From NCBI RefSeq assembly GCF_003387075.1, contig NZ_QUMQ01000001.1, positions 6,138,001 to 6,202,000 on the forward strand: 64,000 nucleotides of DNA. Direction: 5' to 3'. The notes beneath the pieces are model-generated. The model had not been told where the DNA came from, made no database searches, and saw nothing but the letters and a program-made list of their open reading frames with translations. Position numbers and translations under genes: made by a program. Origin of the DNA: Asanoa ferruginea (GTDB lineage Bacteria > Actinomycetota > Actinomycetes > Mycobacteriales > Micromonosporaceae). Below, piece after piece: positions 17,015 through 35,530 of this stretch (its first letter is position 1; every line of letters starts with the position of its first letter).

Positions 17015-17920
17015 GTGAAGAAGAGCCTGAAGTTTGCCGGCAGTTCCGTGGGTGAACCGTGGTGGGTGCTCGGCGATGTGACGCGGAAGCTGCTCGAGCC
17101 GCTCGGTTACGAGGTCGAGGTGCTGACCGCCTCCGGGTCGACGAACAACCCACGCTTTGTCGGCGGCGGCAAGGCCGATTTCGGTGCCACCGTCCCGGAG
17201 ACGCTCGGTTGGGCCATCCGCGGTGAGGAGAACTTCAAGGGCGAGACGTTCGTCCCCGTGCGGGCGATCGGCCGAGTCCGGCGGCCTTCGTGGCTCACGG
17301 CGGCGGTGCGCTACGAAACGGGCTTCACGAGCCTCGAGCAGATCGCCGCTTCCGGACGACCGATCCGGCTGGCGACCAACGACCTGGACTCTATCGCGTC
17401 GGTCGTCCCCAAGAAGGTGCTGGCCTACTACCACCTGACCAAGGACGAGATCGTGGCCAACGGTGGCGAGGTGCGCAAGATGCGCGACGTCGACTGGCGC
17501 GGGGGTGACATCGACGTCATCATCACCAACCTTTACATGGGGCGTACGGCGGTGACGAAGCACTGGATGACGGCCTCGGAACACATGAACCTGCGGTTCC
17601 TCGACCTCGCCGACGACCTCATCGCCCAGTTGGGGGCAGACGGGCATGGCAAGCCGGGCCATGTTCCGTTCCACTTCCTGCGCGGCATCGACCGCCCGAT
17701 CAAGGCGCTCGACCGGGTCGACGGGATCCTCATCTACTGCCCGGCGGACACCGACGAGGATTTCGTCTACACCCTGACGAAGCTCTACGACTCCAACCGG
17801 GATCAGTTTTTCAACCAGGCCGTCCACATGGCGTGGGACCCGGCGGCGGTCACCAACACCGAGGGGGTCGAACTGCACCCGGGTGCCGTTCGCTACTACC
17901 GCGAGGCCGGCCTGCTGTAA
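17015..17920 (+). CDS. TAXI-type solute-binding-fold protein without signal peptide, paralogue 1
   Basis: 301-residue member of the TAXI branch of TRAP-type binding proteins. GTG 17015 is favoured because GGGGGAG lies 7 bases upstream; the ATG at 17009 is too close to it. The chain starts MKKSLKFAGSS and enters GEPWW at residues 13-17 with no hydrophobic leader, so it should remain in the cytoplasm. Blocks shared by all five paralogues are GSTxNPRxVGGGKA, YYHLTKDEI, NLYMGRTAVTKHW, PFHFLRGIDRP and the TAXI tail LHPGAxRYYREAG. No TRAP membrane subunit is present. Function unknown: intracellular ligand carrier, sensor or enzyme. It ends at a bidirectional terminator facing the cupin gene. Confidence 0.82.
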   Translation: MKKSLKFAGSSVGEPWWVLGDVTRKLLEPLGYEVEVLTASGSTNNPRFVGGGKADFGATVPETLGWAIRGEENFKGETFVPVRAIGRVRRPSWLTAAVRYETGFTSLEQIAASGRPIRLATNDLDSIASVVPKKVLAYYHLTKDEIVANGGEVRKMRDVDWRGGDIDVIITNLYMGRTAVTKHWMTASEHMNLRFLDLADDLIAQLGADGHGKPGHVPFHFLRGIDRPIKALDRVDGILIYCPADTDEDFVYTLTKLYDSNRDQFFNQAVHMAWDPAAVTNTEGVELHPGAVRYYREAGLL

Positions 17921-17929
17921 CCGGCCGAG

Positions 17930-17965
17930 GCGGCGGTCCTACCGGAAGCCCGGTAGGACCGCCGC
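17930..17965. terminator. Bidirectional hairpin terminator
   Basis: Perfect 16-bp inverted repeat (left arm GCGGCGGTCCTACCGG) with AAGC loop, between the convergent TAXI gene 1 and bicupin A genes. Confidence 0.88.
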
Positions 17966-17975
17966 TCGTGACGGC

Positions 17976-19031
17976 TCAGCGAGCATGCGCCGCCGCGGCG
18001 TCGTACTCGGGAGCGTTCTCGAAATGGACGATCCGTGCGTACCCGAGGTTCTTGAAAAGCCGGTTCGAACCGGAGATGAGCGTCGCCGGTGACGTGCCGG
18101 TGGCGAATCGCTGGACCACGGTGTTCTGGGGCGTCCAGATGACGTCACCCTTCTTCCACTCCCACCGGGTCGGCTCCTTCGCGATCCGGGCGTAGTACTG
18201 GTCGGTGATCTCGGCCTCCACGTCCCAGTGCAGGTCGTAGCCCTCGCCGTCGATGACGTAGGAAACCTCGTCAGCCATCTGCCAGCGCCGCCCCGACCGG
18301 CTACCCGCCGGGATCTCGTGCAGGTAGACGTCGGTCGCCTTGATCCGCAGCGGGACACCCTCACCCGCCAACTGGCGGACATGCCCGAACGGGGTCCACT
18401 CCCAGGGCGTGTCCTTGGGAGTGAGCACCTTCGGAACGAGTTCGTCGCCCTCGGGGCGCCCGGTGAGCCACTCGCTGCGCGGCTCCCAGAGCTCGTCGTT
18501 CGCCGGGACCGTCCCGATCTTGCCCTGGTAGGTCAGGCCGAGGAAGAGCGCCAGCGGCTTCGGCTTGAAGATGATGCAGGTGGCTTTTTTCTCGGGGTCC
18601 GGATTGTTGTGCCAGTGGACGCTGTCGTTGTGCACCGCGATGGCGTCGCCGGCGTTCCAGTCGTAGCGCTTGCCGTCGTGCAGCTCGTAGCCGTAACCGT
18701 CGAGCGCATAGAAGAAGGCCTCGTTCTGGTGGCCGTGACCGTCGTTGCGGCCGTTCGGCGGGACGACGACGAAATGCACGTGCAGGGACTGGGTACGGAA
18801 GATGTCGTCGCCCGGGGCGACGATGTTCGCGGCTCCCCAGCCCTCCACCCCAGAGGCAGTGAAGACCCGCGGAATGTTGGCCAGCCGGTCCTGGCGTTCC
18901 TTGGCGATCGAATACCGGGAACTGCTCACCTGGCGCACGTAAATGCGCTCCTTGGCGTAGTCCTCGGCATGAACGTGGACGTTCTGCGCCACCTGTTCGC
19001 GCTCGCGGGTCCTGGACCGTTCAGTCTCCAC
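17976..19031 (-). CDS. Bicupin A (gentisate-dioxygenase-like fold)
   Basis: 351-residue protein with two cupin barrels. GTG 19031 is chosen because AAGGAG sits 6 bases upstream, and it overlaps the stop of the AAA+ gene by 11 bases (translational coupling). The first barrel has a complete metal site: HGHQNEAFF (two His and Glu) and a later His in VHWHNN. The second barrel (GRRWQMADEVSYVIDGEG) has lost the histidines. It is closely similar to bicupin B at 36785. The fold includes ring-cleaving dioxygenases, but activity is not established here. Confidence 0.82.
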   Translation of the reverse strand: METERSRTREREQVAQNVHVHAEDYAKERIYVRQVSSSRYSIAKERQDRLANIPRVFTASGVEGWGAANIVAPGDDIFRTQSLHVHFVVVPPNGRNDGHGHQNEAFFYALDGYGYELHDGKRYDWNAGDAIAVHNDSVHWHNNPDPEKKATCIIFKPKPLALFLGLTYQGKIGTVPANDELWEPRSEWLTGRPEGDELVPKVLTPKDTPWEWTPFGHVRQLAGEGVPLRIKATDVYLHEIPAGSRSGRRWQMADEVSYVIDGEGYDLHWDVEAEITDQYYARIAKEPTRWEWKKGDVIWTPQNTVVQRFATGTSPATLISGSNRLFKNLGYARIVHFENAPEYDAAAAHAR

Positions 19032-21222: not shown

Positions 21223-21342
21223 CCCAGCTACCTCCTCGTAGGACCCCGGTCGTGGTCTGGGGCGGGCCGGACGTTGCGATCGAGTCACGGCTCCCCAATT
21301 CATCCGGGAGACCATCTTGACCCGCGGCGAATAGTGATGCAA

Positions 21343-21353
21343 TGGTTAGTCCA
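21343..21353. promoter_or_regulatory. Predicted GntR operator of the long ABC-transporter operon
   Basis: TGGTTAGTCCA within AATGGTTAGTCCAAT, between the divergent AAA+ gene (-) and the ABC permease (+). It is the only such site before the 13-kb unit that ends at 34512. Confidence 0.62.
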
Positions 21354-21450
21354 ATGCAACGCGTCGACCACTCGCGTTCCACCCGGACGCTCTACCGCCG
21401 TATCGAGGCCGAGTTCCCGCGATGAGGGAGAGACAGGGGATGACAGGCAG

Positions 21451-22452
21451 TTGACCAGCTACGTCGTGCGGCGCGTGCTCGGAGCGATCCCCCTGCTTCT
21501 CGCCATCGTCGTGATCATCTTCTTCATCACCCGGCTCGTCCCGGGCGACCCGGTTTCGGCGATGCTGCCCGAGAATGCCACCGAGCTCGACCGGCAGCGG
21601 ATGACCGAGCTGTACGGGCTGAACGATCCGGTGCTCGTCCAGTTCTGGAAGTACCTGGTCCAACTGCTGCACGGAAACCTGGGCACGTCGTTCCAGTACC
21701 ACAGCTCGGTCAGCGAGCTCCTGTGGCGGCGCCTGCCCGCCACGCTCGATCTGGCGATCGCCGCACTGCTCTTCGGGTGGATCATCGGCATCGCCCTGGG
21801 TGCCATCGCGTCGACCAAGCACAACAAGTGGCAGGACCGCACGGCGAGCATTGTCGGTCTCATCGGAATCTCGGCGCCGACGTTCTGGATCGGGTTGCTG
21901 CTCATCATCTACGTAGCCGTGCCGACGGGGTGGTTCCCCACCGGCGGCCGGCTGCCCGCGGACGTCGTGCCTCCCGGTCCAACCGGGGTGAACTTCATCG
22001 ACGCCATCATCCACCTCGACCCTGGCCTGTTCTTCACCTCGCTGCGGTATGTCGCGCTGCCAGCCATCACGCTCGGTGCGGCCATGACCGGTCTGCTCGT
22101 GCGGATGACGCGCTCGAGCATGCTCGAGGTGCTTGGCGACGACTACATCCGCACCGCCCGGGCCAAGGGTGCCCGGGAGAGCACGGTCAACTTCCGCCAC
22201 GCCCTACGCAACGCCGGTCGCCCCGTCGCCACCGTCATGGGCCTGGAGGCGGCGTCACTGCTCAGCGGGTCGATCGTCGTGGAGACCATCTTCTCGTGGC
22301 CCGGGTTGGGGCAGACGCTCGTCAACTCCGTGGATTTCCGCGACTATCCGGTCATTCAGGCCACGGTGCTGATGTTCGCCGTCGTCTTCGTGCTGACGAA
22401 CCTGGCCGTTGACATCGCTTACTGCTTCATCGACCCGAGGATCAAGTACTGA
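21451..22452 (+). CDS. Oligopeptide/dipeptide ABC transporter permease 1 (DppB-like)
   Basis: 333-residue inner-membrane permease. TTG 21451 gives the standard DppB N-terminus (TSYVVRRVLGAIPLLLAIVV), with six hydrophobic segments and the GDPVSAML loop. The cytoplasmic coupling loop near residue 230 reads DDYIRTARAKGA, the EAA-type contact for the ATPases. A tiny frame ATG ACA GGC AGT TGA overlaps the start. It is first in the importer operon (permeases, lipoprotein, peptidase, two ATPases). Confidence 0.92.
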   Translation: MTSYVVRRVLGAIPLLLAIVVIIFFITRLVPGDPVSAMLPENATELDRQRMTELYGLNDPVLVQFWKYLVQLLHGNLGTSFQYHSSVSELLWRRLPATLDLAIAALLFGWIIGIALGAIASTKHNKWQDRTASIVGLIGISAPTFWIGLLLIIYVAVPTGWFPTGGRLPADVVPPGPTGVNFIDAIIHLDPGLFFTSLRYVALPAITLGAAMTGLLVRMTRSSMLEVLGDDYIRTARAKGARESTVNFRHALRNAGRPVATVMGLEAASLLSGSIVVETIFSWPGLGQTLVNSVDFRDYPVIQATVLMFAVVFVLTNLAVDIAYCFIDPRIKY

Positions 22453-22453
22453 C

Positions 22454-23353
22454 ATGGCCATGTTGAAGGGTTCTTCGAGCCTGTCGTTCTGGGCACGGGC
22501 GCGCCGGCTGTTGCGTCGTCCGGGTGGGTGGAACGTCGTGGTGGGCGGCGGCATCCTGTTGGGCTTCGTCATCGTCGCCGTGTTCGCCGGACTGCTGTCG
22601 CCACATGACCCCTACGCCCAGGATCTGGTGAACAAGCTCAAGCCGCCGGCGTGGTCCGGTGGTGGCAGCATGTCCCATCTCCTCGGCACGGACTATCTGG
22701 GCCGTGACATCCTCAGCCGCCTCATCTACGGTGCCCGGATCTCCCTGCTGGTCGGCGTCGCCACGGCCGTCGGGGCCGCCTTCATCGGTGTGACGACCGG
22801 TGTCATCGGCGGATATCTGGGCGGCTGGGTGGACGCCGCCATCCAGCGGGTCGTCGTGCTCTTCCAGGCGTTCCCGTTCATCCTGCTCGCGATCCTGCTG
22901 GTTGCCATCACGGGCGCCGGCACCTGGAAAGTTGTGGTCATCCTGGTGCTGTCGCGCTGGCCCGCGTTCAACCGGGTCGCGCGATCCGAGGCACTCAGTC
23001 AACGAACGCGCGAATACGTCCTGGCCGCCGAAGCCATGGGCTCACACTGGTTCCGGCTCATGAACAGGCACGTCCTGCCCGCCGTGGTCGCGCCCTCCAT
23101 CGTCGTGGCGACGTTCTCCATCTCGGGAGCGATCCTCGGCGAGGCGGGTCTGAGCTTCCTCGGTCTCGGCGTGCCGATCGCCACCCCCACGTGGGGCAAC
23201 ATGCTCGCCGATGGCCGGAACTTCATGTATGCCGACCCCTGGCTGACGATCCCGCCCGGTGTCGCGCTGTTTCTCATCGTCATCGCCGCCAACGTCATGG
23301 GCGATGGCATTCGCGATCTCACCGACCCCCGGTTGAGGAATCGCGCTCGATAG
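22454..23353 (+). CDS. Oligopeptide/dipeptide ABC transporter permease 2 (DppC-like)
   Basis: 299-residue permease starting one base after the stop of permease 1. The N-terminal helix follows a short cytoplasmic region. Family blocks are HLLGTDYLGRDILSRLIYGARISL and the coupling loop TREYVLAAEAMG. It pairs with permease 1 to form the transmembrane channel. Confidence 0.92.
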   Translation: MAMLKGSSSLSFWARARRLLRRPGGWNVVVGGGILLGFVIVAVFAGLLSPHDPYAQDLVNKLKPPAWSGGGSMSHLLGTDYLGRDILSRLIYGARISLLVGVATAVGAAFIGVTTGVIGGYLGGWVDAAIQRVVVLFQAFPFILLAILLVAITGAGTWKVVVILVLSRWPAFNRVARSEALSQRTREYVLAAEAMGSHWFRLMNRHVLPAVVAPSIVVATFSISGAILGEAGLSFLGLGVPIATPTWGNMLADGRNFMYADPWLTIPPGVALFLIVIAANVMGDGIRDLTDPRLRNRAR

Positions 23354-23409
23354 AGCGTTGCACATCAGTTCGCCGTTGCAGATCTCGGTCAACCAGAAAG
23401 AGGTGAAAG

Positions 23410-24981
23410 ATGACTCTCGGAAGCAGAAAGAGACGCCGCACAGTGCTCATCGCGCTGGCGACGGCCGGCGTCTTCGCTTTGACGGCTTGTAACGGCGGTA
23501 GCGGTTCGGGAGGTGCCGGCGCGACGTCTTCGGGCGTCATCGTCCAGGACTCCACGGTGACCGTGGGCGAGCAGGACGAGCCGCCGTCGTGGAACATCTA
23601 CGCGCAAAGCGGCACGGGCAGCGGCAACTCGCAGTGGGGCAACATCTTCGACGCGCTGCTCGACTGGAACTACGACAAGAAAGAGTATGACCCCTACCTG
23701 GCCACGAGCTGGGAGAGCAGCGCCGACCTGAAGACCTGGACGTTCCACCTGCGTCAGGGCGTGAAGTTCTCCGACGGGACGCCGTTCACCGTCGACGATG
23801 TGTTGTTCAGCTTCGACCGCATGAAGAACCACCCCGACTCGCTCATGGCGAGCCACTTCGCCCACGTGACGAAGATGGAAGCGCCGGACCAGTCCACAGT
23901 GGTGCTCCACCTCGACACCCCCATCGCCTCGTTCCTCTCGGACATCGAGGGCCGGATGATCGTGTCGAAGCACGCCTACGACACGATGGGCGAGGACAAA
24001 GCCAACCACGCGATGATCGGCACCGGCCCCTTCAAGCTGGAGAGCTGGGTCGAGGGTCAGCAGATGACGCTGGTTCGCAACGACAACTTCTGGGGCGACA
24101 AGCCGAGCGTCCAGAAGCTCGTGCTCAAGGTCATCCCGGACGACGCGGCACGGCTCGCGGCGCTCAAGTCCGGTGAGGTCCAGATCATTCGTGAACTGCC
24201 CTCGCAGGACATCCCGACGGTGAAGAACACCCCGGGGGTCAAGGTCGTCACCAACCCCGGTGTGCGCATCCTGTTCATGCCGTTCAACCCGACCATCAAG
24301 CCGTACGACGACCCCCGCGTGCGCGAGGCCATCAGCAAGGCGATCGACGTGCACACCATCGTCGACGGCGTGTTCGACGGCACGGTGACGGAGATGAAGG
24401 GCCCGATGCCGGACTTCATCCCCGGTGCGGACCCGAGCTGGAAGGGCCACGTCTACGACCCGGAGGCGGCCAAGGCGCTCGTGCAGGAGATCGGCGGTGG
24501 TCAGCCGGTCAAGATCACGTTCACCTCGGCGACGGGGAACTACCCGGGTGACACCCAGGTCAACCAGGTGGTCGTGGAGCAACTCAAGGCAGTCGGCTTC
24601 GACGTCCAGTTCGACTCACCTGACTTCGCGGTCCTGTCCGCGAACCAGAGCAAGGGCAAGGTCGGGTTCTACCTGATCACCAAGGGTGGTTACCAGGACG
24701 CCGGTGCCGTCTACACGCAGTACTGGCTCGCCGGGCAGTCGAAGCGAACCATGTGGGACGACCCGGCGCTCAACGATGTCCTCACCAAGCAGGCCGCCGA
24801 ACCTGACACCACCAAGCGCGAAGCGCTGCTCAAGGACGCCGGCAACATGCTCGTGGACCAGGACGCCGCCATTTGGTTCGGCACCTACGAAAACCTGTGG
24901 GCGACCGCCGACAACATCAAGTGGCAACCGAACGCCGGTGAGTGGATCAACGGCACTGACATCGACGTCCTTCAGAAGTAG
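23410..24981 (+). CDS. Oligopeptide ABC transporter substrate-binding lipoprotein (DppA/OppA family)
   Basis: 523-residue SBP_bac_5 family protein. The N-terminus has a basic stretch (GSRKRRR), a hydrophobic run and the lipobox LTAC near residue 28, followed by a Gly/Ser linker, so it is a membrane-tethered receptor. Typical blocks are WTFHLRQGVKFSDGTPFTVDDV and the start of lobe 2 (YDDPRVREAISKAID). Members bind peptides but also opines, glycosides and other conjugates, so a peptide is not certain. A long hairpin follows its stop codon. Confidence 0.93.
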   Translation: MTLGSRKRRRTVLIALATAGVFALTACNGGSGSGGAGATSSGVIVQDSTVTVGEQDEPPSWNIYAQSGTGSGNSQWGNIFDALLDWNYDKKEYDPYLATSWESSADLKTWTFHLRQGVKFSDGTPFTVDDVLFSFDRMKNHPDSLMASHFAHVTKMEAPDQSTVVLHLDTPIASFLSDIEGRMIVSKHAYDTMGEDKANHAMIGTGPFKLESWVEGQQMTLVRNDNFWGDKPSVQKLVLKVIPDDAARLAALKSGEVQIIRELPSQDIPTVKNTPGVKVVTNPGVRILFMPFNPTIKPYDDPRVREAISKAIDVHTIVDGVFDGTVTEMKGPMPDFIPGADPSWKGHVYDPEAAKALVQEIGGGQPVKITFTSATGNYPGDTQVNQVVVEQLKAVGFDVQFDSPDFAVLSANQSKGKVGFYLITKGGYQDAGAVYTQYWLAGQSKRTMWDDPALNDVLTKQAAEPDTTKREALLKDAGNMLVDQDAAIWFGTYENLWATADNIKWQPNAGEWINGTDIDVLQK

Positions 24982-24989
24982 TTGTTGGA

Positions 24990-25043
24990 CCCCCGCGGGG
25001 CTGGTCCGCATGCCGAAAGTGCCGGCGGACCACCCCGTGGGGG
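24990..25043 (+). terminator. Intercistronic hairpin after the binding-protein gene
   Basis: Arms of about 19-20 bases (24990-25009 and 25025-25043; inner part TGGTCCGC / GCGGACCA) with one mismatch, one bulged base and a 15-base loop. Placed between the receptor and peptidase genes, it probably acts as a partial terminator or 3' mRNA stabiliser, so the receptor is made in excess of the downstream proteins. Confidence 0.7.
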
Positions 25044-25071
25044 CCGTGAGACCCCATGAGAGGGCGCCTGG

Positions 25072-26964
25072 ATGACCACCGAACCGTCGTACTCGCTGAG
25101 TGATTTTCTTTCCGCGGCCCACGTCAAGGAGTTCGCGCCGCTTTCCGATGGGTCGGGGCTCGTGTTCGTCCGTGACTCGCTCGAGACCGGCACGGCGGAG
25201 ATCTTCCGGGCGGATGCCAGCGGTGGCGAGCCGGTGCGGCTCACGGGCGTCTTTCACCCTGAACTTCAGACCTCGCCATTGGCGCAGCATCGCGCCGAAC
25301 CCAAGGCGCAGCTCGCCGTGACCGCCGAGCGGGTCTTCTTCACCAGCTCGCGCTACTACCAGGCGATCGACAACATCTTCTCGGTCTCGCTCGACGGCAG
25401 CGACCTGCGTCAGCACACGTTCCACGACGCGATGATCGAGACGAGTCCCGCACCGTCGCCGGATGGCTCGACGCTTGCCTACTTCACGCGCACGGGCCGG
25501 GGAACGAAGGTGTTCCTGCTGGACGTACGTACACCCGCGGCTTGGCCTCGGCTCCTGTCACCGGGAAGCGACAACGAGCGGTTTCCGGTCTGGTCGCCCG
25601 ACGGTCGGTGGATCGCGTTCGAGCGCGGCGGAGACACCTGGCTGCACGAGGTCGCGACCGGCAACGAGCGCCGACTCGCCGCGGACGCCTGGAGCAAGGT
25701 GACCGGCCCCGTCTTCGCGCCGGATTCGGGGCGCGTCCTCGTCTCGGCCAGTGACAGCGGATTCAGTCAGCTCGCCGTCGTCGACGTCGCCACCGGCGAG
25801 GTGACCGGCCTGACGCGGCTCCCGCGCCAGCATTCGGCGGGCTCCTGGGCGCCCGACGGGCAGTCGATCACGCTGACGTTCGCCGACGGCGTAGGCCTGA
25901 GCAACCAGGTCGGGGTGCTGCGCGCCGATGGCGCCGGCGAGCTCGTGACGTTGACGGGCGGCACCGCGATGCGCGGCAGCCCACAGTTCTCGCCCGACGG
26001 CGCCTCGGTCTACTACCTGGAGGGTGCCTCCAACCGGGTGCATGACATCTGGGCGGTTTCGCCGAACGGCGGGGAGCCACGCCAGATCACCTTCTCCATG
26101 GGCAGCCTCGACGCCGCCCGCCTGTCCGTCGCCGAGGAGGCCTGGTATCCGGCGGAGGACAGCCTGCCGATCCGGACGCTCGTCTTCAAGCCGGCGAACT
26201 TCGACCCGGCGAAGAAGTATCCGGTCGTCGTCGCCCTCCACGGCCACCCCGGCTGCTGGACGCACACGATGAACGCCCTGTGGCAGTGGGTCATCAGCCG
26301 TGGCGTCGTCCTCGTCGCGCCCAACCCGCGCGGCACCAAGGGGCTCGGCGCGGCCTTCCACGATCTCCACGACGGTGATTGGGGCGGGGTCGAGTTCTCC
26401 GACGTCATGGGCGTGCTCGACCTCATCGCCGAGTTGCCCTACGTCGACGTCCACCGGAAGGCGACGTGGGGCGGCAGCGGTGGTGGCTACATGAGCTTCC
26501 TGATCGCCACGCGCGCCCCGCAGGTGTTCGACGCACAGGTGATCCGGGCGCCTGTCTCGGCGTGGAAGTGGATCGCGATGGATCGGTTCACCGGCCAGGC
26601 GCGATACGCGACCGCGACGCGCGACCCGCAGCGGGCCCGGGAAGAGATGGGCGGCTCGTACACCGAGATTCCCGACCGTTACGAGGAGCGCTCGCCGCTG
26701 AATTTCGTCGAGCACGTCACCGTTCCGCAGTTGCTGCTGAGCGCCCGCCGGGATGGGTCGGTGCCGCTCAACGAGTCGCGGCGCTGGGTCGCTCGGATGA
26801 AGGAGCTCGGAAAGGGCGACCTGGTCGACTACGTCGAGTACCCCGACGACGATCACTCGCTGCTGCGGTATCGCGAGACCATGCGCGATCAGGGCGAACG
26901 GATCGTCAAGTTCCTGGCGGAGCATCTGGATGCTCCACAGATCGCTGAGGAAAAGGTGTCATGA
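25072..26964 (+). CDS. S9 family serine peptidase (acylaminoacyl/dipeptidyl peptidase-like)
   Basis: 630-residue cytoplasmic peptidase with no signal peptide. The N-terminal part (about 1-360) is a WD/PD40 beta-propeller with repeats such as SPDGSTLAYFTR and SPDGRWIAFE. The C-terminal alpha/beta hydrolase carries the nucleophile in GGSGGGYMSF (about residue 470), the Asp in SARRDGSVPL and the His in DDDHSLL. It sits inside the importer operon, overlapping the next ATPase gene by 4 bases (ATGA). This implies that imported substrates contain a peptide or amide bond that it cleaves. Confidence 0.92.
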   Translation: MTTEPSYSLSDFLSAAHVKEFAPLSDGSGLVFVRDSLETGTAEIFRADASGGEPVRLTGVFHPELQTSPLAQHRAEPKAQLAVTAERVFFTSSRYYQAIDNIFSVSLDGSDLRQHTFHDAMIETSPAPSPDGSTLAYFTRTGRGTKVFLLDVRTPAAWPRLLSPGSDNERFPVWSPDGRWIAFERGGDTWLHEVATGNERRLAADAWSKVTGPVFAPDSGRVLVSASDSGFSQLAVVDVATGEVTGLTRLPRQHSAGSWAPDGQSITLTFADGVGLSNQVGVLRADGAGELVTLTGGTAMRGSPQFSPDGASVYYLEGASNRVHDIWAVSPNGGEPRQITFSMGSLDAARLSVAEEAWYPAEDSLPIRTLVFKPANFDPAKKYPVVVALHGHPGCWTHTMNALWQWVISRGVVLVAPNPRGTKGLGAAFHDLHDGDWGGVEFSDVMGVLDLIAELPYVDVHRKATWGGSGGGYMSFLIATRAPQVFDAQVIRAPVSAWKWIAMDRFTGQARYATATRDPQRAREEMGGSYTEIPDRYEERSPLNFVEHVTVPQLLLSARRDGSVPLNESRRWVARMKELGKGDLVDYVEYPDDDHSLLRYRETMRDQGERIVKFLAEHLDAPQIAEEKVS

Positions 26965-27989
26965 CTATTGCCGCGAATAGCCTGACCAGGGTTCCCGGGC
27001 GATCCGACGACCCGCTGCTCGAGGTCGAGAAGCTCTCCGTCGTCTTCGTCGGGCTCGATGCCACGCTGCCGGCCGTCACCGATGTGGCCTTCGGGCTCTA
27101 CCCGGGCGAGACGCTCGGTGTGGTCGGCGAGTCCGGCTCCGGGAAGTCGGTCTCCATGATGTCGATGCTCGGGTTGACCCCCGGCCGCGTGACGTCGGGG
27201 CAGGTCCGGTTCGACGGCAAAGACCTACTGAAGATGTCCGCCGAGGAACGCCGCAAGATCCGCGGTGGCCCGATCGCGATGGTCTTCCAGGACCCTATGT
27301 CCTCGCTCAACCCGGTGCAGCGCATCGGGCATCAGCTCGAGGAGACCCTCAAGCTCCACAGCCCGGAGCTCAACAAAGCGGCGCGCAAGGAGCGCGTCGT
27401 CGAGTTGCTGCGGATCGTCGGTGTCGCCGACCCGGAGCAGCGGGTCAAGCAGTATCCGCATCAGTTCTCGGGTGGTATGCGCCAGCGCGTGATGATCGCG
27501 ATGGCGATCGCGAACTCGCCCCGGGTGCTGATCGCCGACGAGCCGACGACGGCGCTCGACGTGACGATTCAGGCCCAGGTCCTCGACGTGCTGCGCAAGG
27601 CGAAGGACGAGACGGACGCCGCGGTCATCCTCATCACGCACGACCTCGGCGTCATCGCGGAGATGGCCGACCGGGTCATGGTCATGTACGCCGGTCGCGT
27701 CGTCGAGGCGGGCACGGTGACCGAGCTGTTCGACGATCCCCGCCACCCCTACACCAAGGGTCTGCTGGGCAGCGCGCTGCGGGTCAGCGAGCGGGTCGAG
27801 CGACTCAACTCGATTCCCGGCAATCCGCCGAACATCACCCACCTGCCCACCGGCTGTTCCTTCCATCCCCGGTGCTCCATCGCCAACGGGCGGGAGCGGT
27901 GCAGCACGGAGACTCCAGAGCTCATCGACGTCGGCGGCCGCTGGACCGCCTGTCATTTCAGCGACGAATTGCGGGGAGCGCAGTCATGA
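26961..27989 (+). CDS. Oligopeptide ABC transporter ATP-binding protein 1 (DppD-like)
   Basis: 342-residue ATPase. Walker A is GESGSGKS (about residues 55-62), the signature is FSGGMRQR, Walker B is VLIADEP, and the switch His is in LITHDLG. The C-terminal oligopeptide extension has the cysteines of [17 protein letters not shown], which form the 4Fe-4S/metal site of this subfamily. It overlaps both neighbours. Confidence 0.94.
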
Positions 27990-28999
27990 GTGCGGTAGAG
28001 ACGCAGCCGCTGCTGAAGACGGAGGGCCTGGAGGTCCATTTCCCGGTTCGTGCGGGCTTCTTCGGGCAGCGCCGCTCCACCATCAAGGCGGTGGACGGTG
28101 TCGACCTCACGCTGGCGCTGGGCGAGACCCTGGGGCTCGTCGGAGAATCCGGTTCCGGCAAGACGACGACCGGACGAGCGATCATGCGGCTCGAGCGCCC
28201 CACGGGCGGTCGCGTCGTTTTCGACGGCCGGCCGGTGCAGGACGTCTCCGAACGCGAGTTCCGCAAGTTCCGGCGCCAGTTCCAGATCGTCTTCCAGGAC
28301 CCGTACTCGTCCCTCGACCCTCGAATGACGGTGCGTTCCATCATCGCGGAGCCGATGGTTGTCGCCGGCGTCGGGGATCGCGCCTCCAGGGTCGCGCGAG
28401 TGAACGAGTTGCTCAGCCTTGTCGGGCTCGAGACCAGTCATGGCGATCGCTACCCGCACGCGCTGTCCGGCGGGCAGCGCCAGCGGGTCGGCATCGCACG
28501 GGCCCTGGCGCTCAACCCTCAGTTGCTCATTCTCGATGAGCCGGTCTCCGCGCTCGACGTCTCGTTACAGGCCCAGATCGTCAACCTGCTCAAGGACATC
28601 CAGCAGGAGCTGGGGCTCGCCTACCTCTTCATCTCCCACGACCTGTCGGTCGTGCGGCAGATGTGCGACCGGGTGGCCATCATCTACCTGGGCCGGATCG
28701 TCGAGACCGGGCCGTTGGCAGAGATCTTCGACAACCCGTCCCACCCCTACACGCAGGCGCTCCTGTCGGCCGTGCCGATCGAGAACCCGAAACAGCGCGG
28801 GATGTCGAACCGCATCGTGCTGCGCGGCGACGCCGCGAGCCCGAGCAATCCACCGTCGGGATGTCATTTCCATCCCCGCTGTTTCCGGGCCGAGGAGATC
28901 TGTTCGAAGGAGTCTCCCGCGCTGCGCGACCTCGACGGCACCGACCATTCCGCGGCCTGCCACTTCGCCGGCCCGAAGACCGTGCTCCCGCAAGCATGA
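27986..28999 (+). CDS. Oligopeptide ABC transporter ATP-binding protein 2 (DppF-like)
   Basis: 337-residue ATPase starting at ATG 27986 inside the previous stop (ATGA overlap), with GGGGAGCG upstream. Walker A GESGSGKT, signature LSGGQRQR, Walker B LLILDEP, switch His in FISHDLS, C-terminal Cys block CHFHPRCFRAEEIC. Together with ATP-binding protein 1 it completes the importer. Confidence 0.94.
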   Translation: MSAVETQPLLKTEGLEVHFPVRAGFFGQRRSTIKAVDGVDLTLALGETLGLVGESGSGKTTTGRAIMRLERPTGGRVVFDGRPVQDVSEREFRKFRRQFQIVFQDPYSSLDPRMTVRSIIAEPMVVAGVGDRASRVARVNELLSLVGLETSHGDRYPHALSGGQRQRVGIARALALNPQLLILDEPVSALDVSLQAQIVNLLKDIQQELGLAYLFISHDLSVVRQMCDRVAIIYLGRIVETGPLAEIFDNPSHPYTQALLSAVPIENPKQRGMSNRIVLRGDAASPSNPPSGCHFHPRCFRAEEICSKESPALRDLDGTDHSAACHFAGPKTVLPQA

Positions 29000-30369
29000 C
29001 CGGTCGTTGGGAGCCCGCGCGGGTGGTGAGCGTCGAGGAGTGTGTGCGGGCGTCCGCGGATGTCGCGGCACTGCCGACGCGTGACATCACGGACACGGAG
29101 GACGTGTTCCGCATCGATGAGGCCGGGATGCGATGGGACATCGGCGTCCATGTGCACGAGCCGGTGGGTGGCTCGACGGCGGTGGGCGCGGACGGCAGGA
29201 AGATCGGCGTGTTCCTGCTGCACGGCGGCCAGGACGACTGGCGCCAGATGCTTCCGTTCGCGACGATGCTCGCCGCGAAGTTCGGCTACAAGGTGGTGAC
29301 CGGCACCTTCCCGGGCCGCTTGTATCTGCAGGATCCGAGCCGCGACTGGCCGGGCGACACCATCAACCCCGACGGCACGGTCCGCACGCCGATCTGGTTG
29401 ACCGACGAGCTGATCACCCCGGACCAGTACGACGTGGTCAAGGACACCCGGCTCAAGGCCCGGTACGGGACGCGAACGGTGGTCCACGCCAAGCCTGGGA
29501 CCAATTTCTGGTTCCGGATGGCGGCGTCGCCGCTGGCCATGGAAGCGGGCATGGTCGAGGCGATGCGCCGGCATTTCCCCGTCGACGAGTTCTCCGTGTA
29601 TATGCAGGGACACTCGACCGGCGGCGCGATGACCATGATGCTCGCCCAGCGGGTGCCGAACTGTGCGGGTCTGCTCGCCGCCGAGAACTCGATGTTCGGG
29701 GTCATCACCGAGCGGATGCAGATGTGGAGCGGGTCGCTCGGCAAGGTCGAGGGCTACGACCTCTTCACCGAGACCGCCAGCTATGAGGGGCGCGTCGACC
29801 CGTTCTACGAGGTGTATCTGCGCTCCTGGCGCGACATCGCCCGCTACTACGGTCCCGAGGCCCTGGGCAAGGAAGGTCCGGCGGCCCTGATGCGCCTGCC
29901 CTCCCTCATGGAGGAAGTGCTCGACGGCTGGGACAGGCAACTGGTGCGGCCACTTTTCAAGTGTGAATACCCGGTGACGCACAACATCGTGGCGTCGCTG
30001 ACGCAGGGCGCGCAGGTGACCGCGGAGCGGTTGGGCCTCTCCCATGCCGAGACCCAGCACCTGGTCGAGCACTACCTCGGCTTCACGCGGGAGTTATCCG
30101 GCACCGGGGTCAAGCCGATGCCGCACACGCTGTTCGGGATCGCGCGGCACAGCCGGGACGCGAGCCCCGAGGCGTTCGAGCAGATCACCCTGCCGCACTT
30201 CGCCGCGATGAATCCGGCGCCCCGGGTCGGACTGCAGCACTTCCAGGCCGGAACCCACATGTTGTGGCGGTCCGAGCCCAACCTTCCGCAGGGAATATTG
30301 CCCGCCGTGGTCCAACAGTGGGATCAGGCCATCACCCAAGGATTCTTCGTCCGGGAAGGGCGCCGATGA
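28996..30369 (+). CDS. Alpha/beta-hydrolase-like protein, tandem copy 1
   Basis: 457-residue protein of no family I can name. An alpha/beta hydrolase core is suggested by the oxyanion-type FLLHGGQDDWRQM (about residue 72) and the nucleophile elbow QGHSTGGAM (Ser near 203). The acid and His could not be assigned. There is no signal peptide. Start ATG 28996 overlaps the stop of ATPase 2 (ATGA). It has the same number of codons as the next gene, and most residues are identical in the two, so they arose by tandem duplication. A likely role is hydrolysis of an imported ester or amide. Confidence 0.72.
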   Translation: MTGRWEPARVVSVEECVRASADVAALPTRDITDTEDVFRIDEAGMRWDIGVHVHEPVGGSTAVGADGRKIGVFLLHGGQDDWRQMLPFATMLAAKFGYKVVTGTFPGRLYLQDPSRDWPGDTINPDGTVRTPIWLTDELITPDQYDVVKDTRLKARYGTRTVVHAKPGTNFWFRMAASPLAMEAGMVEAMRRHFPVDEFSVYMQGHSTGGAMTMMLAQRVPNCAGLLAAENSMFGVITERMQMWSGSLGKVEGYDLFTETASYEGRVDPFYEVYLRSWRDIARYYGPEALGKEGPAALMRLPSLMEEVLDGWDRQLVRPLFKCEYPVTHNIVASLTQGAQVTAERLGLSHAETQHLVEHYLGFTRELSGTGVKPMPHTLFGIARHSRDASPEAFEQITLPHFAAMNPAPRVGLQHFQAGTHMLWRSEPNLPQGILPAVVQQWDQAITQGFFVREGRR

Positions 30370-31739
30370 CCGGCCACTGGGAGCCCGCACGGGTGATGAG
30401 CACGGACGAATGCGTGCAGGCGACCGCGGAGGTCGCCGCGCTTCCGACGATCGAGATCACGGACACGGAGGACGTGTTCCGCATCGAGGTCGCGGGCCTG
30501 CAATGGGATATCGGCGTCCGGGTCTACGAACCCGCTGACCCGGCCGCGATCGCGGTGGGCGCGGACGGAAAGAAGATCGGCGCGTTCCTCCTGCACGGCG
30601 GTCAGGACGACTGGCGGCAGATGATCCCGTTCGCGACGATGCTCTCCTCGAAGTTCGGCTGGCGGGTGGTGTGCGGGACGTTCCCGGGCCGGCTCTACCT
30701 CCAGGATCCGAGCCGCAACTGGCCCGGGGACACGATGAACCCGGACGGCACGGTCCGCACCCCGATCTGGCTCAAGGACGAGTTCATCACCCCGGACCAG
30801 TACGAGGTTGTCCAGGACACGTCGAAGGCAGCCCGGTACGGGACGCGCACCCTCGTCCACGCCAAGCCGGGCACCACGTTCTGGTACCGGATGGCGGCGT
30901 GGCCACTCGTCATGGAGGCGGGTTTCGTCGAGGCGATGCGCCGGCACTTCCCGGTGGACGAATACTCGATCTACGTGCAGGGCCACTCGACGGGTGGCCC
31001 GCAGGTGTGCATGTTGTCCCAGCGGGTGCCCAACATCGAGGGAATCCTCGCCACGGAGAACTCTCCCTTCGGCTACATCGCCGAGCGCCTACAGGCGTGG
31101 GGCGGCGCGCTGGGCAAGGTCGAGGGCTACGAGCGAGTCAAGACCGCGGCGAACCACACGAAGCGCGCCGACCCGTTCTACGAGGTCAACATCCGCTCGT
31201 GGCGCGACCTGGCCAGGTATGCGGGCCCAGAGGCACTGGGCAAGGAAGGGCCCGCGGCGCTCATGCGGCTGCCCTCCCTCATGGAGGAGATCTTCGAGAA
31301 GTGGGACAAGCTGCTGGCGCGGCCGCTCTTCAAATGCGAGTACGTCATCACCGAAGACATCCAGCCGGCGCTAACCCAGGCGGCGCAGGTGACGGCGGAG
31401 CGGCTGGGCTTGTCGGAGACCGAGACGGACGACCTGGTCCAGCACTACCTGGGCCTCGCGCGTGAGCTGACGGGTCCCGGGGTCAAGCGGGTGCCGAACA
31501 CGTTGTTCGGCATCTCCAAGAACAGCCGGGACCACAGCAAGGAGGTGTACGAGGAGGTCGTCCTGCCGGCGTTCGCGGCGATGAACCCGGCCCCTCGCAC
31601 CGCCCTCACACACTTCCAGGCCGGCGTACACCAGCTCTGGGGTGCCGAGCCGAACCTGCCGCAAGGCATTCTGCCCGCCGTCTGTCGACAGTGGAACCAG
31701 GCCGTCCAGGAGGGATTCTTCCTCAATGCCAAGGATTAG
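30366..31739 (+). CDS. Alpha/beta-hydrolase-like protein, tandem copy 2
   Basis: 457 residues, exactly the length of its neighbour, starting with MTGHWEPARVMS against MTGRWEPARVVS. The nucleophile elbow is QGHSTGGPQ and the FLLHGGQDDWRQM block is unchanged. It differs in the substrate-side region, for example CMLSQRVPNIEGILATENSP instead of MMLAQRVPNCAGLLAAENSM. This suggests divergent specificity or a heteromer. The start overlaps copy 1 by 4 bases, and the 3' end overlaps the following TAXI gene by 14 bases. Confidence 0.72.
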   Translation: MTGHWEPARVMSTDECVQATAEVAALPTIEITDTEDVFRIEVAGLQWDIGVRVYEPADPAAIAVGADGKKIGAFLLHGGQDDWRQMIPFATMLSSKFGWRVVCGTFPGRLYLQDPSRNWPGDTMNPDGTVRTPIWLKDEFITPDQYEVVQDTSKAARYGTRTLVHAKPGTTFWYRMAAWPLVMEAGFVEAMRRHFPVDEYSIYVQGHSTGGPQVCMLSQRVPNIEGILATENSPFGYIAERLQAWGGALGKVEGYERVKTAANHTKRADPFYEVNIRSWRDLARYAGPEALGKEGPAALMRLPSLMEEIFEKWDKLLARPLFKCEYVITEDIQPALTQAAQVTAERLGLSETETDDLVQHYLGLARELTGPGVKRVPNTLFGISKNSRDHSKEVYEEVVLPAFAAMNPAPRTALTHFQAGVHQLWGAEPNLPQGILPAVCRQWNQAVQEGFFLNAKD

Positions 31740-32679
31740 ATTCGCGGGCAGTTCGGTCGGCGAACCCTGGTGGGTCGTCGGTGACGTCACCCGGCAACTG
31801 CTGGAACCGCTCGGCTACCAGGTCGAGGTGCTCTCCGAGTCCGGCTCGACGAAGAACCCGCGCTACGTCGGCGGCGGCAAGGCCGAGCTCGGCGCGTCGG
31901 TCATTCCGACGATCCGCTGGGCCGTCAACGGTGAGCATCTCTACCAGGGCGAGACCTTCGCGCCGATGCGCGCCATCGGGCGGCTGGTTCGCCCCGCCTG
32001 GCTGGGCATCGCGGTGCGCGCCGAACTGGGTTTCACGACCATCGAAGAGGTCGCCGCCTCCGGCTATCCGTTGCGCCTGGAGACGCACGCACTGGACACG
32101 ATCGCCGCCGTCCTCCCGATGGAGGTGCTCACCCACTACCACCTCACGCCCGACGAGATCGCGGCGAAGGGCGGCACCACCCGGGTCATCGGCAGGGGCG
32201 ACTACCGGGCGGGCGACGCCGACTTCATCATCGGCAACCTCTACCTGGGTCGCACCGCGGTGACCCAGAGCTGGTTCACCGCGACCGAGCACCAGAACAT
32301 GCGGTTCCTGGAGTTGGGCGACGACATCCTCGCCCAGTTGACGGCGAACGGACATGGCCAGCCCGGGGAGATCCCCTTCCACCTCCTGCGCGGGGTGGAT
32401 CGCCCGATCAAGGCCCTCCAGCAGGCCATCGACCTGCTCATCTACTGCCCGGCCGACGCCGACGAGGACTTCGTGCACACCTTGACGAGGCTCTACGACA
32501 CCAACCGGGGCATCTTCTTCAACCAGTCCTTCCACATGGCCTGGGACCCGGCACGAGCCGTGCACACCGGCCCGCTCCAACTGCACCCGGGCGCCGAGCG
32601 CTACTACCGGGAGGCCGGCCTGCTCCAGGCCCCGGAGGCGTCGAACTCGCAGTCAGCACCGTCAGAAGGAGAGTTGTGA
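31726..32679 (+). CDS. TAXI-type binding-fold protein without signal peptide, paralogue 2
   Basis: 317-residue paralogue. ATG 31726 lies within the end of the hydrolase gene, with AGGAGGG about 11 bases upstream; the chain begins MPRIRFAGSSVGEPWW with no leader. It departs from the other copies in several conserved blocks: STKNPRYVGGGKAELGASV, TAVTQSWFTATEH (Gln-Ser for Lys-His) and IPFHLLRGVDRP. It also has a C-terminal extension (APEASNSQSAPSEGEL). These differences make it the most divergent copy, perhaps with a different ligand. Confidence 0.8.
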   Translation: MPRIRFAGSSVGEPWWVVGDVTRQLLEPLGYQVEVLSESGSTKNPRYVGGGKAELGASVIPTIRWAVNGEHLYQGETFAPMRAIGRLVRPAWLGIAVRAELGFTTIEEVAASGYPLRLETHALDTIAAVLPMEVLTHYHLTPDEIAAKGGTTRVIGRGDYRAGDADFIIGNLYLGRTAVTQSWFTATEHQNMRFLELGDDILAQLTANGHGQPGEIPFHLLRGVDRPIKALQQAIDLLIYCPADADEDFVHTLTRLYDTNRGIFFNQSFHMAWDPARAVHTGPLQLHPGAERYYREAGLLQAPEASNSQSAPSEGEL

Positions 32680-33587
32680 AAAGGGACCTGAAATGGGCAG
32701 GCAGCACCGTTGGTGAGCCCTGGTGGATCATCGGCGACATCACGAGGCGCCTGCTCGAGCCGGAGGGTTACTCGGTCGAGGTGCTGACGCAGTCGGCGGC
32801 CGACGAGAACCCACGGTTCGTCGGGCGCGGCAAGGCCGACTTCGGTGTCGTCGTGGAACAGATCGTCGGCTGGGCGGTCAAGGGTGAGCACAACTTCACG
32901 GGTGAGGAGTTCGTGCCGCTGCGGGCCATCGCGCGGCTGTCCCGGCCCGCGTGGCTCGGTGTGGCCGCGCGCCACGAGCTCGGCTTCACCAGCATGGCCG
33001 AACTCGCCGCATCCGATTACCCGGTGCGGGTCGAGACGCACGCCTGGGACTCCATCGGCAGCCTGCTGCACCGCGAGTACCTCGCCTACCACGGCCTGAC
33101 GAAGGAAGCGATCGAGGCGCGGGGTGGCACGGTCCGCAACTTCGGCAAGGGCGGCGACCTGCGCGCCGGCGACGTCGACCTGATCGTCGCCAACCTCTAC
33201 CTGGGCCGCACCGCCGTGACGAAGCACTGGATGACCGCTTCCGAGCACCTGAACCTGCGCTTCTTCGACATCGACGACGGACTGCTCGCGCAATACGTCG
33301 CCGAGGGCAACGGCAAACCGGGTGAGATTCCGTTCCACTTCCTGCGCGGCATCGACCGCCCGGTCAAGGCGCTGGAGCGGGAGTTCGGGCTCATCATCTA
33401 CTGCCCGGCGGACCTCGACGAGGACTTCGTCCACGACCTCACGAAGCTCTACGACACCAACCGCGGAATGTTCTTCAACCAATCCCTCCACATGGCATGG
33501 GACCCGGGTCGGGTCGCCAGGACGAACCCGCCGCTGGACCTGCATCCCGGTGCGGAGCGCTACTACCGCGAAGTCGGAATCCTCTAA
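32676..33587 (+). CDS. TAXI-type binding-fold protein without signal peptide, paralogue 3
   Basis: 303 residues. GTG 32676 overlaps the previous stop (GTGA) with AGAAGGAGA upstream. It begins MKRDLKWAGSTVGEPWW. It replaces the GSTxNPR block with SAADENPRFVGRGKAD and the YYHLTKDE block with YHGLTKEAI, but keeps NLYLGRTAVTKHW and PFHFLRGIDRP. It is cytoplasmic by prediction and translationally coupled in the row of TAXI genes. Confidence 0.8.
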   Translation: MKRDLKWAGSTVGEPWWIIGDITRRLLEPEGYSVEVLTQSAADENPRFVGRGKADFGVVVEQIVGWAVKGEHNFTGEEFVPLRAIARLSRPAWLGVAARHELGFTSMAELAASDYPVRVETHAWDSIGSLLHREYLAYHGLTKEAIEARGGTVRNFGKGGDLRAGDVDLIVANLYLGRTAVTKHWMTASEHLNLRFFDIDDGLLAQYVAEGNGKPGEIPFHFLRGIDRPVKALEREFGLIIYCPADLDEDFVHDLTKLYDTNRGMFFNQSLHMAWDPGRVARTNPPLDLHPGAERYYREVGIL

Positions 33588-33606
33588 CCGAATCGAAGGG
33601 ACACTG

Positions 33607-34512
33607 ATGTCTAAGAGTCTGATATTTGCCGGTAGCGGCGTCGGCGAGCCGTGGTGGGTGGTCGGCGACGTCACCCGGCGCCTGCTCGAGCCGCTCGGCT
33701 ACGAGGTCGAGGTGCTCAGCAAGTCCGGGTCCACCAACAACCCCCGGTATGTCGGCGGTGGCAAGGCCGATGTCGGTGCGTGTGTCGTCCAGACGTTGGG
33801 CTGGGCGACCCGCCGGGAGCACCTTTTCAAGGACGACGACATCGCGCCGCTGCGCGCGGTCGGCCGCCTGGTGCGTCCGGCCTGGCTTGCCGCCGCGGCA
33901 CGCTGGGAGCTGGGCTTCACGAGCCTGAAGGAGATCGGGGAGTCGAACTATCCGGTGCGGGTCCAGACCCACGACCTGTCGTCGATCGCCGGGGTTGTTC
34001 CCAACGAGCTGCTGAAGTACTACCACCTGACCAAGGACGAGGTGGAGGCGCGCGGCGGCACCGTCAAGGAGATCGGCAAGGGTGACTTCCGGGCCGGCGA
34101 CGCGGACGTCATCATCGCGAACCTCTACATGGGACGCACGGCGGTCACGAAGCACTGGTACACCGCGTCGGAGCACGAGAACCTGCGCTTCTTCGATTTC
34201 GACGACGAGTTGCTCGACCAGTTCGAGGCACGCGGCGAGGGCACCCGCGGTGAGATCCCGTTCCATTTCCTGCGCGGGGTCGACCGACGCGTCAAGGTGT
34301 TGCAGCGCAATCTCGACATCATCATCTACCTGCCGGAGTCGGCGGACGAGCAGTTCGTCTACGACCTCACGAAGCTCTACGACACCAACCGCGAGGTGTT
34401 CTTCAACCAGGCGGTTCACATGGTGTGGGACCCGGCGGCCGTGACGTCGACCGCTCCGCTGGAACTGCACGCGGGTGCCCGGCGCTACTACGAAGAGGCC
34501 GGGCGTCTGTAG
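33607..34512 (+). CDS. TAXI-type binding-fold protein without signal peptide, paralogue 4
   Basis: 301 residues starting at ATG 33607 (MSKSLIFAGSGVGEPWW), with GAAGGGA upstream. It carries all the consensus blocks, including SGSTNNPRYVGGGKAD, YYHLTKDEV, NLYMGRTAVTKHW and PFHFLRGVDR. The lower-lobe segment IIIYLPESADEQFVYDLTK is shared with paralogue 5, while paralogues 1-3 read IYCPAD...EDFV. The two C-terminal types may mark two functional subgroups. It appears to be the last gene of the long operon. Confidence 0.81.
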   Translation: MSKSLIFAGSGVGEPWWVVGDVTRRLLEPLGYEVEVLSKSGSTNNPRYVGGGKADVGACVVQTLGWATRREHLFKDDDIAPLRAVGRLVRPAWLAAAARWELGFTSLKEIGESNYPVRVQTHDLSSIAGVVPNELLKYYHLTKDEVEARGGTVKEIGKGDFRAGDADVIIANLYMGRTAVTKHWYTASEHENLRFFDFDDELLDQFEARGEGTRGEIPFHFLRGVDRRVKVLQRNLDIIIYLPESADEQFVYDLTKLYDTNREVFFNQAVHMVWDPAAVTSTAPLELHAGARRYYEEAGRL

Positions 34513-34604
34513 ACCGAGGGCAAAAGGATAGACCAACAAACCATTGCGCGTGTACGTTGTTCGAGGCTCAGGAACACCGGCGGACAGATGGGTAGGGGCA
34601 GGTC
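34513..34604 (+). promoter_or_regulatory. Probable promoter region of the second TAXI/cupin operon
   Basis: 92-base gap before TAXI paralogue 5. It contains GACCAACAAACCATT (34531-34545); on the other strand this reads as two directly repeated TGGT half-sites, weaker than the other island operators. I see no clear -35 or -10. Confidence 0.35.
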
Positions 34605-35516
34605 ATGGCGATGGCGAAAGAGTTGAAGTTTGCCGGCAGTGGCGTCGGCGAGCCGTGGTGGATCATCGGCCACATCACCCGTCGCCTGCTGGAGCCGCTG
34701 GGCTACCAGGTCGAGGTGCTCAGCGAGTCCGGATCGACGAACAACCCCCGGTATGTCGGCGGCGGCAAGGCGGATTTCGGCGCCACCGTCCCGCAGACCC
34801 TCGGCTGGGCCGTTCGTGGCGAGCACCTCTTCCAGGGTGAGACGTTCGTCCCGCTGCGCTCCGTCGGTCGGGTGCGCCGCCCGTCCTGGCTGACCGCGGC
34901 GGCTCGCTGGGAGCTCGGGTTCACCAGCCTCAAGGAGATCGGGGAGTCCGACTACCCGATCCGGCTCGTCACCCACAACCTCAGATCCATCGCCTCCGTC
35001 GTGCCCAACGAGGTGCTGAAGTACTACCACCTCACGAAGGAAGAGATCGAGGCGAAGGGCGGCACGGTTCGCGAGATCGGTGGCAACGACTACCGCTCCA
35101 CCGACTTCGACGTCATCATCGGCAACCTCTACATGGGACGCAGCATGGTGACCCGGCACTGGTCGGCCGCGACGGAGCTGATGAACCTGAGGTTCCTCGA
35201 CCTCGACGACGAGTTGCTCGCGAAGCTGACCGCCGACGGTCACGGCACGCCGGGCGAGGTTCCGTTCCACTTCCTGCGCGGCGTGGACCGTTGGGTCAAG
35301 GCCCTCGACCGGATCAGCGACCTGCTCATCTACCTGCCCGAGTCGACCGACGAGCAGTTCGTCTACGACCTCACGAAGCTCTACGACACCAACCGTGGCA
35401 CGTTCTTCGGCCAGGCCGTCCAGATGGCCTGGGAGCCTTCCAGCGTGACGATGGGCGACCCACTCCCGCTGCACGCCGGCGCCGAGCGCTACTACCGGGA
35501 AGTGGGGCTGCTCTGA
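34605..35516 (+). CDS. TAXI-type binding-fold protein without signal peptide, paralogue 5
   Basis: 303 residues from ATG 34605 (MAMAKELKFAGSGVGEPWW; ATG 34611 is an alternative). It has the LPEST-type lower lobe like paralogue 4. It differs in the NLYMGRSMVTRHW block, where the TAVTK of the others becomes SMVTR. No signal peptide. It is first in an operon with an MFS carrier, two bicupins, an EutA-like protein, another MFS carrier and a cysteine hydrolase. Confidence 0.81.
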   Translation: MAMAKELKFAGSGVGEPWWIIGHITRRLLEPLGYQVEVLSESGSTNNPRYVGGGKADFGATVPQTLGWAVRGEHLFQGETFVPLRSVGRVRRPSWLTAAARWELGFTSLKEIGESDYPIRLVTHNLRSIASVVPNEVLKYYHLTKEEIEAKGGTVREIGGNDYRSTDFDVIIGNLYMGRSMVTRHWSAATELMNLRFLDLDDELLAKLTADGHGTPGEVPFHFLRGVDRWVKALDRISDLLIYLPESTDEQFVYDLTKLYDTNRGTFFGQAVQMAWEPSSVTMGDPLPLHAGAERYYREVGLL

Positions 35517-35530
35517 GCGCGCTGGGCCAG

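Follow-up and report, generated by a model that had tools for sequence, protein, structure and literature searches.

What do five genes of the TAXI family, without any recognizable export signal, contribute to a bacterial gene cluster for aromatic catabolism? The question is raised by a stretch of 64,000 nucleotides from Asanoa ferruginea (contig NZ_QUMQ01000001.1, positions 6,138,001 to 6,202,000), hereafter called the window, in which an earlier note made from the sequence alone had placed TAXI-type binding protein genes at 17015, 31726, 32676, 33607 and 34605. All five were recovered as intact plus-strand open reading frames (ORFs) of 301-317 aa (paralogues 1 to 5, Table 1), and our analysis suggests that their products probably act inside the cell, either as enzymes or as ligand handlers.

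By profile, fold and C-terminal motif, the paralogues are assigned to the TAXI family. Pfam NMT1_3 (PF16868) was matched above the cut-off by all five (48.6-66.2 vs. 27 bits), and NCBIfam TRAP_TAXI (TIGR02122) was matched by all five below its cut-off (29.8-62.9 vs. 84.35). A profile of the paralogues aligned by hhalign with four signal-bearing TAXI proteins plus a further signal-less one, L053, at 99% (E 3.9e-18), and the TAXI fold was found over the whole length. Over all ten pairs the paralogues are 62.1-71.4% identical, with a dS of 0.60-0.80 and a dN/dS of 0.31-0.46. These ratios point to selection, i.e. the copies appear to be maintained, and together with the intact ORFs they rule out an annotation or frame artefact. 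Against the single copy of a congener (genome G466) dS is 0.49-0.70, similar to the values among the paralogues, so that the copies would be about as old as the split between the two congeners.

Export was addressed with 43 TAXI-family genes, namely the five paralogues, the congener copy, a copy from a genome of another family (G248), L053 (genome G515) and 35 others. From each start codon lying no more than 60 codons ahead of the profile match, we sought a hydrophobic segment by its best 12-residue hydropathy, against a threshold of our own setting (a hydropathy test only, not SignalP). Of the 35, 29 came from a census with PF16868 (two of them from the A. ferruginea genome itself) and six from a second PF16868 search; seven low-scoring PF16868 matches (E 6e-6 to 9.5e-4) and 11 plasmid matches were left out. 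The paralogues start at the first beta strand, and no hydrophobic leader was found in any of them from any start tested (0.48-0.99). This bears out the claim that they lack a signal peptide. A signal was present in 35 of the 38 TAXI genes beyond the five, the exceptions being the congener copy (0.82), the G248 copy (1.32) and L053 (0.35). Hydropathy reached at least 2.04 in 32 of the 35; in the remaining three, which fell below the automatic threshold, the leader was judged by eye, lying further upstream in L070, recognizable by a lipobox in L050 and situated in another frame in L048 (an apparent frameshift). A missed start codon concealing a signal peptide was ruled out, as no upstream start within 60 codons gave a hydrophobic segment, and paralogues 2 and 3 have start codons that overlap the stop codon of the gene before. 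By sequence, the five paralogues and the congener copy are thus predicted to stay in the cytoplasm.

The absence of a linked TRAP permease, likewise put forward in the earlier note, holds as an observation and fails as a distinguishing sign. No TRAP permease was found within the window, and the 9.07-Mb genome has a single DctM match (PF06808, E <= 0.001), at C1:1568190, about 4.5 Mb from the paralogues. It adjoins a signal-bearing, lipoprotein-like TAXI gene (C1:1570409); a second signal-bearing TAXI gene of this genome lies at C1:287657. However, a TRAP match inside about 1.5 kb was also lacking for 18 of the 35 signal-bearing TAXI genes (some of these regions being truncated by contig ends). 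Permease absence is therefore not diagnostic, and we dropped it as proof of a new role.

Three shared sequence blocks had been considered unusual for pure binders, i.e. YYHLTKDE, TAVTKHW and PFHFLRGIDRP (PFHFLRGxDRP across the paralogues). This did not stand, since all three align with ordinary segments of the TAXI protein 1us4 (EAYGLTFDDL, SAIQQLA and IPGGTYKGVDV, respectively), and they were consequently dropped as proof of catalysis. Two variants do appear special to the signal-less group: LRGxD occurs in seven of eight signal-less TAXI proteins and NLYxGR in six of eight, vs. none of 38 signal-bearing ones in either case (the above 35 plus L015, L016 and L017).

The ligand cleft was compared with that of VcGluP, whose side-chain contacts to glutamate are given in excerpts of PMC11574862 as Y45, S75, Q93, E125, Y200 and M201. 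In the numbering of paralogue 5 (the 34605 protein), VcGluP Y45, Y46, Q93, M201 and G203 correspond to W18, W19, V62, N174 and Y176, all invariant in six proteins (the five paralogues and the congener copy). S75 maps to S44 (alanine in paralogue 3), Y200 to a small residue (173) and E125, depending on the alignment, to R92, P93 or residue 94, none of which is acidic. Besides the five, P17 is invariant among the replacing residues, and the nearby E16 and R92 likewise. Most of the glutamate-contact residues of VcGluP thus appear to be replaced, and the full set of side-chain contacts of a glutamate-binding TAXI protein was not found in the paralogues, with the mapping made at low identity. The ligand is probably not glutamate, and probably anionic and aromatic; that it may be of the same class for all copies is a guess.

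Relatives of the signal-less paralogues are rare in the samples of genomes searched. With paralogue 5 as query, only A. ferruginea itself was found among 396 genomes of the phylum (E <= 1e-30), while two of 300 genomes of the family (E <= 1e-15) and two of six of the genus (E <= 1e-10) gave matches. Profile A1 matched one of 397 genomes of the order (E <= 1e-30), while profile A3 matched, besides A. ferruginea, G248 alone among 396 genomes of the phylum (E <= 1e-12). The PF16868 census gave matches in 22 of 188 genomes, and all 27 matches outside A. ferruginea carry signals. A pattern scan of genome contigs yielded just four distant TAXI loci, and a plasmid search with TAXI 11 records, all below 25% identity. 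The search of other genomes for the same array, as proposed in the earlier note, thereby did not find the five copies repeated; a single copy, 64-72% identical to the paralogues, occupies the syntenic cluster of the congener (L026-L028), flanked by an ABC importer and two major facilitator superfamily (MFS) genes. Identities of other genes in that cluster are 79% for the Rieske oxygenase, 89% for the Zn dehydrogenase, 87% for the decarboxylase homologue and 75% for the PanB-like gene.

The G248 relative has the motif LRGLDRP and, by ORF reading, a P450, a flavin monooxygenase, a short-chain dehydrogenase/reductase and a dehydrogenase as neighbors; its genome gave no DctM match. In a tree of 46 proteins it grouped with the five paralogues and the congener copy at 100/99, with a program warning of long-branch attraction, and the congener copy was placed among the paralogues at weak support values (82/56). 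We dropped the tree as a basis for the link to G248, as this protein has no resolved position among the signal-bearing TAXI proteins once the other six are removed; the profile score (E 1.7e-22) and the LRGxD motif are what suggests the link. L053 (G515:C51:2217-3083) sits on a very long branch in the TAXI tree. It adjoins a gene resembling serine hydroxymethyltransferase (ORF reading) and has the loop GDGWY, with no LRGxD.

Paralogues 2-5 are situated inside a run of 23 consecutive plus-strand genes (about 21.4-47.0 kb, gaps of at most 92 bp), about 3.5 kb upstream of which paralogue 1 stands separately. Besides the genes listed in Table 1, the run holds a second MFS gene (ORF reading) and an isochorismatase-family gene between the EutA-family gene and the Rieske oxygenase, and a gene for a 168-aa protein between the latter and the PanB-like gene. 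A profile of the two 4,5-dihydroxyphthalate decarboxylase homologues of the window and five relatives matches 9jp7 (E 1.6e-91). Together with PhtC and LigK, these homologues in and around the run point to a phthalate-type aromatic dicarboxylate as the likely substrate of the cluster. The congener has an MFS gene 66% identical to the one after paralogue 5 near its own TAXI gene, with one MFS gene in between.

Table 1. Features of the window, with positions counted from its first nucleotide.
Feature	Coordinates	Strand	Remarks
TAXI paralogue 1	17009 (ATG) or 17015 (GTG)..17920	+	Divergent from MFS gene
TAXI paralogue 2	31726..32679	+	14 bp overlap with upstream hydrolase-like gene
TAXI paralogue 3	32676..33587	+	GTG start; 4 bp overlap with paralogue 2
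TAXI paralogue 4	33607..34512	+	
TAXI paralogue 5	34605..35516	+	Structure modelled, pLDDT 82.4
Second 4,5-dihydroxyphthalate decarboxylase homologue	9692..10630	-	
Zn-dependent dehydrogenase	10724..11866	+	Kept in module
MFS_3 permease	15700..16914	-	Divergent from paralogue 1, 94 bp
Peptide-type ABC importer dppB, C, A, D, F and S9 peptidase (25072-26964)	21274..28999	+	Importer named from ORF reading; first two starts uncertain; opens run
Two tandem 457-aa alpha/beta-hydrolase-like genes	28996..31739	+	71% identical; GHSTGG motif; weak family assignment
MFS_3 permease	35513..36751	+	Directly after paralogue 5; 4 bp overlap only with CTG start at 35513 (start uncertain)
Two double-cupin genes	36785..38942	+	77% and 80% identical in congener
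EutA-family gene	38993..40420	+	
Rieske oxygenase, LigXa_C type	42567..43847	+	
PanB-superfamily gene	44347..45162	+	
Alpha/beta hydrolase	45171-46022		Expected nucleophile region GGCVGCS
4,5-dihydroxyphthalate decarboxylase homologue	46019..47008	+	Signal not seen; closes run
LigK/PcmE 4-carboxy-4-hydroxy-2-oxoadipate aldolase	50211..50966	-	Above equivalog cut-off, 336.5 vs. 304.5 bits
PhtC 3,4-dihydroxyphthalate decarboxylase	52301..53059	+	Above equivalog cut-off, 309 vs. 200

Parts of the module were also identified elsewhere. A Rieske match was present in 75 plasmid records, and three rhizobial loci retrieved from these share with the window the Rieske oxygenase (69-71%), the dehydrogenase (63-65%), the alpha/beta hydrolase (56-57%) and an amidohydrolase (58-59%). 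The cupin occurs in six of 300 genomes of the family, i.e. A. ferruginea, the congener and four more, of which G451, G397 and G515 were examined and the fragmentary G399 was left out. Genes resembling decarboxylases dependent on thiamine pyrophosphate (TPP) were found in four of six module loci without TAXI (L029, L031, L041 and L042; not L030 and L040) and in neither of the two TAXI-bearing loci, a weak pattern in few loci and fetched stretches only, of which we make no use. In L041 and L042, both without TAXI, ORF reading indicated a block of two TPP-dependent enzymes, an aldehyde dehydrogenase, an AAA protein and a cupin, and L030 (a Sinorhizobium plasmid) holds three decarboxylase-like homologues within 45 kb.

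Several further observations concern the neighboring genes. The 457-aa proteins gave no Pfam family above the cut-off, the second also no plasmid match at E <= 1e-10, and a model of such a protein reached a pLDDT of 34. The EutA-family gene adjoins a double cupin, and no ethanolamine ammonia-lyase gene is present among the annotated genes; the cupin-EutA pairing recurs twice each in L029 and L030. The nucleophile of the alpha/beta hydrolase near the end of the run may be a cysteine. Two GntR/FCD regulator genes (11877-12678 and 50989-51788), 92.5% identical over 805 bp, flank the cluster in the same orientation, at a distance of about 39 kb, with a third, more distant copy at 48328-49164. Near paralogue 1 are a CbbQ/NorQ-type AAA gene and, behind it, a long ORF, maybe with a VWA partner (12721-15775), and a gene for a double-AAA, CDC48-like ATPase (19021-21222); these AAA genes are possible metalloenzyme activators.

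Our preferred reading, offered tentatively, is that TAXI-fold proteins kept in the cytoplasm have been drawn into a phthalate-type pathway, where they would handle an anionic aromatic ligand and would most likely be enzymes of the periplasmic binding protein (PBP) fold. The cleft would bind one of the anionic aromatic pathway intermediates, the most likely reaction would be a decarboxylase- or lyase-type step, and the copies would be isoenzymes or subunits. Among single-domain PBP-fold proteins of the cytoplasm, those with a known function are often enzymes, e.g. 4,5-dihydroxyphthalate decarboxylase, Thi5 and MqnA/D, and two homologues of the first of these are found in the cluster; for these reasons we would slightly favor an enzyme over a ligand handler, by a small margin. 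More doubtful is the specific course of events in which a phthalate-binding TAXI protein, having lost its signal, multiplied to five copies that stay in the cell and today perform a cofactor-free step (e.g. decarboxylation) on an aromatic dicarboxylate. A number of points weigh against a catalytic role. The known role of the TAXI family is binding, five maintained copies fit binders equally well, and the MFS neighbors together with the copy number favor a binder. No catalytic residue set was identified in the paralogues, and no ring-cleavage dioxygenase among the genes of the cluster, leaving the pathway incomplete on paper. The cleft mapping uses alignments of about 20% identity, three of which put E125 at positions one residue apart, and the M201/G203 segment has another position under MAFFT than in the HMMER alignment used for the mapping. 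Of the 13 contact positions eight (seven in one alignment) are invariant, vs. 119 of 299 positions overall (P 0.09, or 0.22), and cleft conservation is thus not clearly above that of the rest of the protein; a looser set of 13 positions (nine invariant, P 0.028) held E16 and R92 and omitted two contacts, and was replaced by this strict set. Finally, no TAXI match was found in the three rhizobial plasmid loci and no close TAXI protein in the four further cupin-bearing genomes of the family. TAXI is therefore not essential to the module, and looks like an addition to it in the genus Asanoa.

The close rival, also possible, is that the paralogues are non-catalytic intracellular binders, which sequester aromatic acid intermediates and so buffer their toxicity, or hand them to MFS permeases or pathway enzymes. 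Binding is the job for which the family is known, and MFS_3 genes stand directly after paralogue 5 and divergent from paralogue 1, as the congener copy stands beside two MFS genes; yet such neighbors are common in catabolic clusters, the coupling to paralogue 5 hinges on a CTG start, and five similar binders need explaining. Coupling of a TAXI protein to a permease other than TRAP is on record, as described in excerpts on TAXI-GltS of Bordetella (BP0403, PMC12344293), where the TAXI gene also lies beside the permease gene; BP0403, however, is an exported lipoprotein working with GltS, whereas the paralogues are signal-less and their adjacent permeases are MFS_3 by Pfam. A TAXI-TRAP system for o-phthalate uptake is likewise reported in excerpts (PMC13040137; OpaL/OpaN, PMC6362003), which ties TAXI proteins to phthalate-type catabolic genes as in our cluster, but these receptors, compared by description only, have a fused permease. 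Among the literature matches listed, largely outside subscription journals and available as excerpts, TAXI proteins are presented as receptors outside the cytoplasm or without mention of their place, and no cytoplasmic TAXI protein or carrier is described. Export by a route invisible in the sequence, with the paralogues serving as importer receptors, would suit the ABC importer in the same run and the other one adjoining the congener copy; it is improbable given that no candidate start yields a hydrophobic leader, that two starts are embedded in preceding genes and that each importer comes with its own lipoprotein-like binding protein (ORF reading). If anything, a role as intracellular ligand sensors with regulators or enzymes as targets seems even less probable. 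PBP folds do serve as effector domains of regulators, and the cluster holds three GntR/FCD regulators (the third, 51012-51797, by its 92.5% DNA identity), but Pfam gave no fused DNA-binding or signaling domain in the paralogues, the regulators have their own FCD domain, and five copies would be unusual for sensors.

An enzyme derived from a binding fold would have a precedent in 4,5-dihydroxyphthalate decarboxylase (9jp7), a phthalate-degrading enzyme with a PBP-like fold. This precedent, invoked in the earlier note, stands in so far as two relatives of 9jp7 lie in the cluster; the paralogues themselves have no profile similarity to them (hhalign of profile A3 vs. A4, probability 0.1, E 0.42), which rules out homology as far as hhalign can tell from small alignments. 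Under our preferred reading of PBP-fold enzymes, enzyme activity would have arisen in the paralogues separately from the decarboxylase. The hydroxymethylpyrimidine (HMP) synthase Thi5/NMT1 (4h67, 4h6d), which we take to be a cytoplasmic enzyme, is a distant Foldseek match only (TM about 0.4-0.5, root-mean-square deviation about 9-12), the VIA-align rows being a second look at Foldseek matches only.

From the binding proteins of TAXI-TRAP systems (VcGluP, 8s4j/9ibo; T. thermophilus, 1us4/8u79; 4ddd), the paralogues differ in having neither signal peptide, lipobox nor nearby TRAP gene, in most glutamate contacts and in the LRGxD variant. According to excerpts of a 2018 review, TAXI-TRAP systems had always been found with a fused DctQM (PMC5812351). 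Judged by sequence, the paralogues would be a new variant of TAXI. If an amplified TAXI clade does act inside the cell as part of a catabolic operon, the family would gain a new role, and the switch of a binding protein to another function could be studied in a manageable case, with the signal-bearing TAXI proteins of the same genome as reference. If true, the enzyme reading would represent an independent repeat of the route from binder to enzyme that has been proposed for 4,5-dihydroxyphthalate decarboxylase.

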